Notes under the pieces: model-generated
What the model saw: only the letters and a program-made list of their open reading frames with translations
What the model was told of the DNA's origin: nothing
The model's database searches: none
Origin: Candidatus Poseidoniales archaeon
Lineage (GTDB): Archaea; Thermoplasmatota; Poseidoniia; Poseidoniales; Poseidoniaceae
DNA length: 34,492 nt
Assembly (NCBI GenBank): GCA_028283345.1
Contig: JAPOGE010000014.1
Coordinates: forward strand, 1-34,492
Direction: 5' to 3'
Shown: positions 31,282 to 32,592 of the stretch, piece by piece
How positions within the stretch are numbered: the stretch's first letter is position 1
Layout: each line of letters starts with the position of its first letter
Position numbers and translations under genes: made by a program

Positions 31282-31674
31282 TCAACCCTTTTCAGCGAAA
31301 AACAGATTCGCGAGCCACGAATGTCGATTCCACAGAGCGGTGTGCACCGCGAGCGGAATGAGAATGGTTGCTACCAGCCAATTCGCCCAAGCCATTCCGT
31401 TGACCGCCCACCAATAACCAATCGTCAGGGGTAGCGCCAGCACCAGACCATACTTCATCGCCCGCACCCGGTCATCAGGATTGCGTTGACCGCCGATGAG
31501 TACCGCCAGAGGACCAAAGGCGTGGATGATGATGGCTATTTCGATGGCGATGAGACGAAACAGAAAATCCCAGCCCTGCGCCGCGAAGACGATGTGGAGG
31601 ACGAAATCTAGGGCGAAGAAGAACAGCACAACGCCCAGGCCGGTCCAGGGTTGGTCGCGGTTGAATACACCCAC
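31282..31674 (-). CDS. Four-TM membrane protein, 130 aa
   Basis: No family recognised. Four TM helices are visible (about 12-31, 36-60, 74-94, 97-116) with short loops and a conserved-looking NPDDRVRAMKYG cytoplasmic loop. The start is GTG at 31674 (an ATG two nt upstream is in a different frame). It lies 37 bp upstream of the Mrp ATPase gene on the same strand, so it may lead that operon. Upstream of it is the long non-coding region at 31675-32220. Confidence 0.68.
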   Translation of the reverse strand: MGVFNRDQPWTGLGVVLFFFALDFVLHIVFAAQGWDFLFRLIAIEIAIIIHAFGPLAVLIGGQRNPDDRVRAMKYGLVLALPLTIGYWWAVNGMAWANWLVATILIPLAVHTALWNRHSWLANLFFAEKG

Positions 31675-31752
31675 ATCGGGTCACGGTATGGACTGCTATG
31701 TAATGCTTTGAATATCTGCATTCGCCATTAGCGGAAAAAGTAGCGCTGAACC

Positions 31753-31843
31753 TTGTTGCTCTGGTGCCGCCGAGAGCAGTGATAGGGGGTGACTGAACGC
31801 CCCACAGCGGAACTCTCGGCGGCGGAAGGATCCGCTGCAACAA
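31753..31843. ncRNA. Candidate structured RNA (nested hairpins), strand unclear
   Basis: Outer arms TTGTTGC (31753-31759) and GCAACAA (31837-31843) enclose an 11-bp perfect inverted repeat, GCCGCCGAGAG (31766-31776) with CTCTCGGCGGC (31813-31823), whose loop has its own GGGG...CCCC stem around GTGACTGA; a further short stem GCGGA/TCCGC lies at 31822-31835. On the plus strand the 3' side is ACA-rich, and the GA-rich loop is like a K-loop, so an H/ACA-type guide is one option; on the minus strand it would be a leader of the 130-aa protein gene. Structure is clear; identity and transcription are not known. Confidence 0.35.
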
Positions 31844-32179
31844 CAATAAACAACGTGAACCTACTTCAAGGCTAAGATGCGAGGGCGACCAGACAGTACG
31901 TATGTCGCCCGAGAGGAATCACTAGCGCGAAACTCGAGGCCGTGTATTCAGTAGGAAGATGGTGGTCTGGAATTGCGTCACGAGCGATTCCGGTCATGCA
32001 AGTTCGGCTACCTGACAGTAGAATTCAGTACGTATGTCTTCCGACACGAGCCCTTTGCATTGAAACGCGTATATCGGGTCTCGTACCTCAGGAATATTGC
32101 TTCTTACTGTACTTCGCACTTCATCGTCGCTCTGCGACTCAGAAGTTCTTACCCTCCGGCCAAGCAAGTCTGGCGAGTT

Positions 32180-32190
32180 GAAATTAATAC
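32180..32190 (+). promoter_or_regulatory. Candidate TATA box of the phosphatase/arsenate reductase gene
   Basis: AAATTAATAC, an AT-rich stretch centred about 35 nt upstream of the ATG at 32221. Transcription would start near 32212, giving a very short leader. No second element was confirmed. Confidence 0.3.
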
Positions 32191-32220
32191 TTCATAGATG
32201 GTCATCTCCCACAATGTATC

Positions 32221-32592
32221 ATGCGAGTACTATTCGTCTGTATCGGCAACTCTTGTCGCAGCCAGATGGCCGAGGGTTGGGCCCGCCACCTGGGTCTTGA
32301 TTGTGCCAGTGCGGGAACCCATCCGGCCACCGGTGTTGCAGGCAATGCTGTGGTGGTGATGGCCGAGGTCGGAGTCGATATATCACAACAGACACCGAGT
32401 CTTGTCGATGATTTCTCCCCTGGGGATTTCGATTTGATATTCAGCATGGGTTGCGGTGTCTATTGCCCGAATATTCCCCTCGACGGAGATTGGGAATTAG
32501 CCGACCCGGTCGGCCAGTCACTTGCAGTCTATCGGAAAACCCGAGATGAAATCGAAAGGAATGTGCGAAAACTTGCCTCGACTGGCAAGTGA
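32221..32592 (+). CDS. Low-molecular-weight protein-tyrosine-phosphatase / arsenate reductase family
   Basis: A 123-aa enzyme with the CX5R P-loop at the very N-terminus (VCIGNSCRS; Cys7, Arg13) followed by QMAEGWARHL. Two further cysteines, Cys78 and Cys82 in SMGCGVYCPNIP, lie where thioredoxin-coupled arsenate reductases keep their relay cysteines, and Asp95 in LADPVG is the general acid. This favours an ArsC (arsenate reductase) over a pure tyrosine phosphatase, though no ars genes are nearby. The C-terminal helix YRKTRDEIERNVRKL is typical. It converges on alba with its TGA directly against alba's stop codon. Confidence 0.9.
   Translation: MRVLFVCIGNSCRSQMAEGWARHLGLDCASAGTHPATGVAGNAVVVMAEVGVDISQQTPSLVDDFSPGDFDLIFSMGCGVYCPNIPLDGDWELADPVGQSLAVYRKTRDEIERNVRKLASTGK

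Follow-up and report, generated by a model that had tools for sequence, protein, structure and literature searches.

What fills a 546-nt, hairpin-rich, non-coding gap in an archaeal genome? The gap (31675-32220) lies in contig JAPOGE010000014.1 of a Candidatus Poseidoniales archaeon, of which we analysed a stretch of 34,492 nt (the window), and a first-pass annotation had proposed that it is a new structured RNA. The gap itself is real; it is bordered by two divergent genes, and the chance ORFs within it matched no Pfam family. To its left are a 130-aa gene, whose protein has no Pfam match, and a gene for an Mrp/NUBPL-type ATPase; to its right are an arsC-like (LMW-phosphatase/arsenate-reductase-like) gene and a gene for an Alba protein. 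Upstream sequences from the family's other genera place the arsC-like and 130-aa genes only ~60-100 nt apart, so a gap of 546 nt is unusual and represents a genus-level expansion. Our main comparison is between the window's own genome (G000) and a sister genome of the same genus (G001; UBA60, Candidatus Poseidoniales per NCBI), which is 68% complete; both are fragmented MAGs. The arsC-like gene sits between the Alba and 130-aa genes in most other genera checked and is missing there in UBA60 (L188/L211). We considered the arsC-like gene as an inserted cassette and rejected this, as the gene is ancestral here in other genera and absent at the locus in G001.

The structural features pointed out in the annotation are present. 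The perfect 11-bp inverted repeat was recovered, the 7-bp outer stem appears in the fold (TTGTTGC at 31753-31759 pairing with GCAACAA at 31837-31843), and the 13-bp direct repeat CAGTACGTATGTC is exact (31894-31906 and 32026-32038), with none expected in shuffled sequences. Other hairpins lie at 31883-31910, 32044-32086 and 32126-32138, in addition to a long imperfect palindrome (Table 1). The judgement that the gap is neither RNase P nor SRP RNA also proved correct, since both RNAs are located elsewhere in the same genome, and an Rfam search of the gap gave no match at the gathering score and none up to E=10. Taken as a whole, the gap is no more stably folded than shuffled sequences when read as the plus strand (z -0.40), and modestly more so as the minus strand (z -1.95); the one segment to differ clearly is 31746-31860 (z -3.8 plus, -3.6 minus), which was chosen for the fold test after the fact. 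Rather than one RNA, the gap is a composite, with a conserved block (block A) on the left and an array of repeats (31879 to ~32180) on the right, and hairpin-forming repeats cover more than half of it. The proposal of a new structured RNA thus fails for the whole 546 nt, as the array consists of dispersed repeats, and possibly holds for block A.

Table 1. Features in and around the gap, with positions in the window.
Feature	Position	Strand	Basis or remark
130-aa ORF	31282-31674	minus	its start is the left border of the gap
Promoter-like box TTCAAAG of the 130-aa gene	31706-31712	minus	like tRNA-gene boxes, by eye
Block A, conserved structured block, candidate small RNA gene	31746-31842	minus	identity, fold, consensus
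Perfect 11-bp inverted repeat, within block A	31766-31823		arms 31766-31776 and 31813-31823
Promoter-like box CCTTGAAGTAGG (CCTTAAAGTAGG in G001)	31860-31871	minus	alignment and tRNA promoter profile, by eye
Element X, first copy	31879-31918	plus	repeat matches; arms 31883-31889 and 31904-31910
Payload P, long imperfect palindrome	31911-31993	plus	83% identical to G001 copy L004
Element X, second copy	32006-32038	plus	contains the second 13-bp repeat, 32026-32038
Element Y	32040-32159	plus	short repeat, hairpin 32044-32086, body to 32153, closing repeat CTCCGG
Y inner stem	32126-32138	plus	within the body of the window Y
Usual right flank CCAAGCAAGTCTGGCGAGTTG	32160-32180	plus	recurs after P, Q and Y copies
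LMW-phosphatase/arsenate-reductase-like (arsC-like) gene	32221-32592	plus	right border of the gap

Block A, of ~97 bases, is single-copy and lies at the same place in G001. The two versions are 89% identical (94% in the core, 31762-31842), compared with ~40% for the bordering stretches and 88% for the neighbouring coding sequence. Beyond the block, the segment 31855-31878 is also nearly identical in G001, its identity being understated in one alignment where the G001 stretch ended early. Block A itself gave the z values quoted above in G000 (-3.8 plus, -3.6 minus) and -1.8 on the plus and -2.5 on the minus strand in G001. The consensus fold favours the minus strand (-35.2 vs -29.2 kcal/mol for the plus strand); all 28 of its 28 minus-strand pairs are kept in both genomes, and where one substitution breaks a plus-strand pair, the minus strand still has a G-U pair. 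As to compensatory changes, suggested as a check on the RNA, block A shows one two-sided change and several one-sided changes between the two genomes. Judged against the genome's own tRNA promoters, the box at 31860-31871, ~25 nt ahead of the block's edge, fits a start near 31840. On this evidence from sequence, block A is plausibly a small minus-strand RNA gene, represented by two sequences, and its RNA is more likely on the minus than on the plus strand. A plus-strand H/ACA RNA was rejected because the lower stem is lost in G001, and a protein because most residues in the open frames are altered by substitutions. A search of relatives with a covariance model gave no accepted match outside G000 and G001; two matches in other genera were rejected, one sitting inside a long ORF (L185) and one being a partial match of 35 nt (L186). 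The second promoter-like box, at 31706-31712, resembles the boxes of G000 tRNA genes at about -32 to -26, and the segment around it (31696-31715) is 90% identical in G001; it appears to be the 130-aa gene's own box, kept in the sister genome.

The array on the right has the module order X-P-X-Y, followed by the right flank. Folded alone, payload P gives a z of -1.3 and the window copy of Y is unremarkable, and the arms of the Y hairpin resemble, by eye, the 3' end of tRNA-Glu(TTC). Lying between divergent genes and not behind a gene, this array is an exception among the copies described below. Both the array and the arsC-like gene beside it are missing from this locus in G001. Another family of palindromes, Z (CGAAGGCC...GGCCTTCG), occurs often, and more so in G001 (L010, L104/L137, G001:C113:26581-26626 and many others); one of its copies in G001 occupies the exact point where the window array starts.

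How far are these modules dispersed? A blastn search with the gap gave 17 matches in G000 (one being the window itself), 6 in G001 and none among 37 other relatives. A short Y pattern matched 24 times in G000, against once for the reversed control, and a composite query of five module types from the window and the sister genome gave 56 matches (32 in G000, 24 in G001) and none in 23 other relatives. These counts derive from searches and are lower bounds. The exact patterns were not found in the GTDB genomes or IMG/VR, collections from which near relatives may be missing, and blastn of the gap against phages and plasmids gave no match. As far as searched, the elements are confined to one genus of Poseidoniales. 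Repeat copies also lie at or near the starts of G000 contigs C130, C137, C169 and C171, suggesting that the repeats break the assembly and that the true copy number is higher. A Y-like copy occupies the orthologous place in both species (L031, L040), implying that some insertions would be older than the species split.

The copies share a layout. Y consists of a short repeat, an arm, a ~24-nt loop, the inverted arm, a body and a short repeat, and short TTCCGG-like repeats flank many of its copies; the unit as a whole reads as an end sequence, a ~24-nt loop, an inverted copy of the end, a body of 70-100 nt and a second copy of the end. The inner stem of Y varies while its pairing is kept (CCAC/GTGG, GGGC/GCCC, GGTGC/GCACC, GGCGAC/GTCGCC), and the arms of X covary likewise (GGGCGAC/GTCGCCC, GGACGAC/GTCGTCC, GGTCGAC/GTCGACC, AGGAGAC/GTCTCCT). 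For both the Y inner stem and the X arms, 0/5000 shuffles were equally good, a figure that overstates the strength of the covariation because the shuffles ignore kinship among copies; the two-sided changes are clear in themselves. When Y copies were aligned with plain MAFFT, RNAalifold returned no structure because the variable arms misalign, and we used paired-arm tests instead.

Copies of X lie mostly in sense orientation behind genes. In nine listed copies the upstream ORF ends with the TGA that lies inside the GTGAGGG of X, and several more are <=4 nt from a stop codon, in a listing that contains a few likely chance matches to the motif. Behind one orthologous gene, whose upstream sequence is 91% identical, G000 and G001 share the same X but differ in what comes next: Y in G000, P in G001. 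A second locus has X alone, kept in both species.

Several Y copies begin instead at the 3' end of a tRNA gene, with a second copy of the tRNA end beyond them. The sites at tRNA genes Lys-CTT, Glu-TTC, Cys and Leu-TAG (the anticodons of the last two being taken from sequence) are filled in G000, whereas those in G001 are empty. The insert at filled sites is ~80-100 bp with no ORF, and the direct repeats measure 38 bp (Lys), 36 bp (Cys) and 59 bp (Leu). Among 60 tRNA genes, 8 have their own 3' end directly repeated downstream (0.17 expected) and 13 have an inverted copy of it nearby (2.8 expected); under the same thresholds, a complete genome of another genus showed no excess (1/30 for each). 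One difference between the species (L012 vs L015) has the look of a deletion in G001 more than of a clean insertion. At some tRNA-Leu and tRNA-Ser genes (L110, L111, L114), a loop of ~20-24 nt comes after the 3' end, and then the tRNA's own 3' half recurs inverted over 20-23 nt. A similar palindrome, without the insert, is present in G001 at Leu-TAG and Ser-CGA, where it may predate insertion.

We lean towards reading the gap as genus-specific, non-autonomous, cassette-like mobile hairpin elements next to a separate conserved block. The units would settle at the 3' ends of genes in sense orientation, X at the stop codons of protein genes and Y at tRNA 3' ends, where an arriving element would bring a matching tRNA 3' end that keeps the gene whole, with the displaced end left downstream. 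X would be a docking site that receives payloads P, Q or Y, likely through site-specific recombination at the hairpin site, resembling cassette or tRNA attachment-site integration, with an enzyme acting in trans. The mobility of the elements, the direction of change and the enzyme are points that we infer from comparing sequences. G000 and G001, both incomplete, each hold one tyrosine recombinase (PF00589); that of G000 is XerA-like and scores 99.8 bits against the 265-bit cut-off of TIGR02249 (integron integrase). No Y1 transposase (PF01797) was found in 13 genomes including these two, nor a reverse transcriptase (PF00078) in G000 and G001; among these three enzyme types, no dedicated enzyme was found in the two genomes. 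A fuller version, in which an integrase-less cassette system exchanges payloads at hairpin docking sites on tRNA and protein-gene 3' ends, possibly through the host's XerA-like recombinase, seems to us doubtful.

Could the array instead be made of ordinary miniature transposons, MITE- or REP-like, moved by a DNA transposase with a preference for a CCGG-like target, with gene ends merely tolerated as sites? Small, non-coding, multi-copy and nested elements, many of the Y copies bordered by short TTCCGG-like repeats, would suit this reading. It accounts poorly, however, for the exact placement at stop codons, for the match of the hairpin arms to each host tRNA and for the 36-59 bp repeats at three tRNA loci, and the Y1 transposase was not found in the 13 genomes; we think it unlikely. 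Integration classically leaves a displaced tRNA 3' end behind, and such ends are present here. The units might then be remnants of larger tRNA-integrating elements whose interiors were lost later, for example of Charybdis-like elements, which have been reported beside Poseidoniales tRNA genes (PMC12324425). The same short bodies nevertheless recur at many unrelated loci, and viral, phage and plasmid searches with the queries tried gave no match, which leaves this origin very improbable.

A different possibility is that nothing moves, and that the units are 3'-end modules such as terminators or signals for RNA processing or stability, inherited vertically and shuffled by recombination. The way they sit precisely behind genes and tRNAs in sense orientation, the conservation of X alone behind one gene in both species and the covarying stems are all consistent with such a role. 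Sites that are filled in only one of the two species, and payloads that differ between them, argue against it, as do the many genes and tRNAs (most of them) that lack the modules and the position of the window array, and we consider it quite improbable. The original suggestion that all 546 nt form one new structured RNA draws on several hairpins and the lack of an Rfam match, but the plus-strand fold of the whole gap is no better than that of shuffles, repeats that occur singly elsewhere make up 31879 to ~32180 as a mosaic, and the array is missing at the locus in the sister species; a single RNA is hardly credible.

To our knowledge, little is known of how Poseidoniales genomes change. One study (PMC6461757) ranks the Poseidoniales (Marine Group II) first in abundance among the planktonic archaea of surface ocean waters and describes them as having no cultured members. 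If the reading of mobile hairpin elements is true, elements that attach to gene ends would give short DNA modules a new route of spread and a new means of altering transcript ends. Such elements would restore or supply gene ends, with sister species carrying different payloads, and the filled and empty sites make their mobility testable in metagenomes. This part of the locus is more surprising than the candidate RNA gene, and the case illustrates that a gap rich in hairpins may be made of a mosaic of repeats instead of an RNA.

Several known systems invite comparison. Integron gene cassettes and attC sites have been reported in archaea too (PMC9668308), and the elements resemble them in having hairpin-forming sites right behind stop codons and short units with an exchangeable payload behind a fixed site. 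Unlike integrons, they come without an integron integrase (the sole recombinase being XerA-like) and without cassette genes, their copies are dispersed rather than gathered in one array, and we noticed by eye no attC consensus or conserved box pair in them. With MITE and REP/BIME repeats they share being small, non-coding, palindromic, multi-copy and nested; they differ in that a parent transposon was not found, in arms that match the host gene rather than fixed terminal repeats, and in the long duplications at tRNA loci. Tycheposons and the Charybdis elements (PMC12324425) are integrative elements at tRNA attachment sites. Archaeal elements with tyrosine recombinases likewise integrate at tRNA attachment sites (PMC8371274). 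As in such elements, the tRNA is left whole with the element next to it and a displaced copy of its 3' end downstream, an arrangement found for Y and its sister units at tRNA genes and not for the window copy. In contrast to them, the units described here are roughly 100 bp long without genes or an integrase of their own, also hold an inverted copy of the tRNA end, and have related units at the ends of protein genes.
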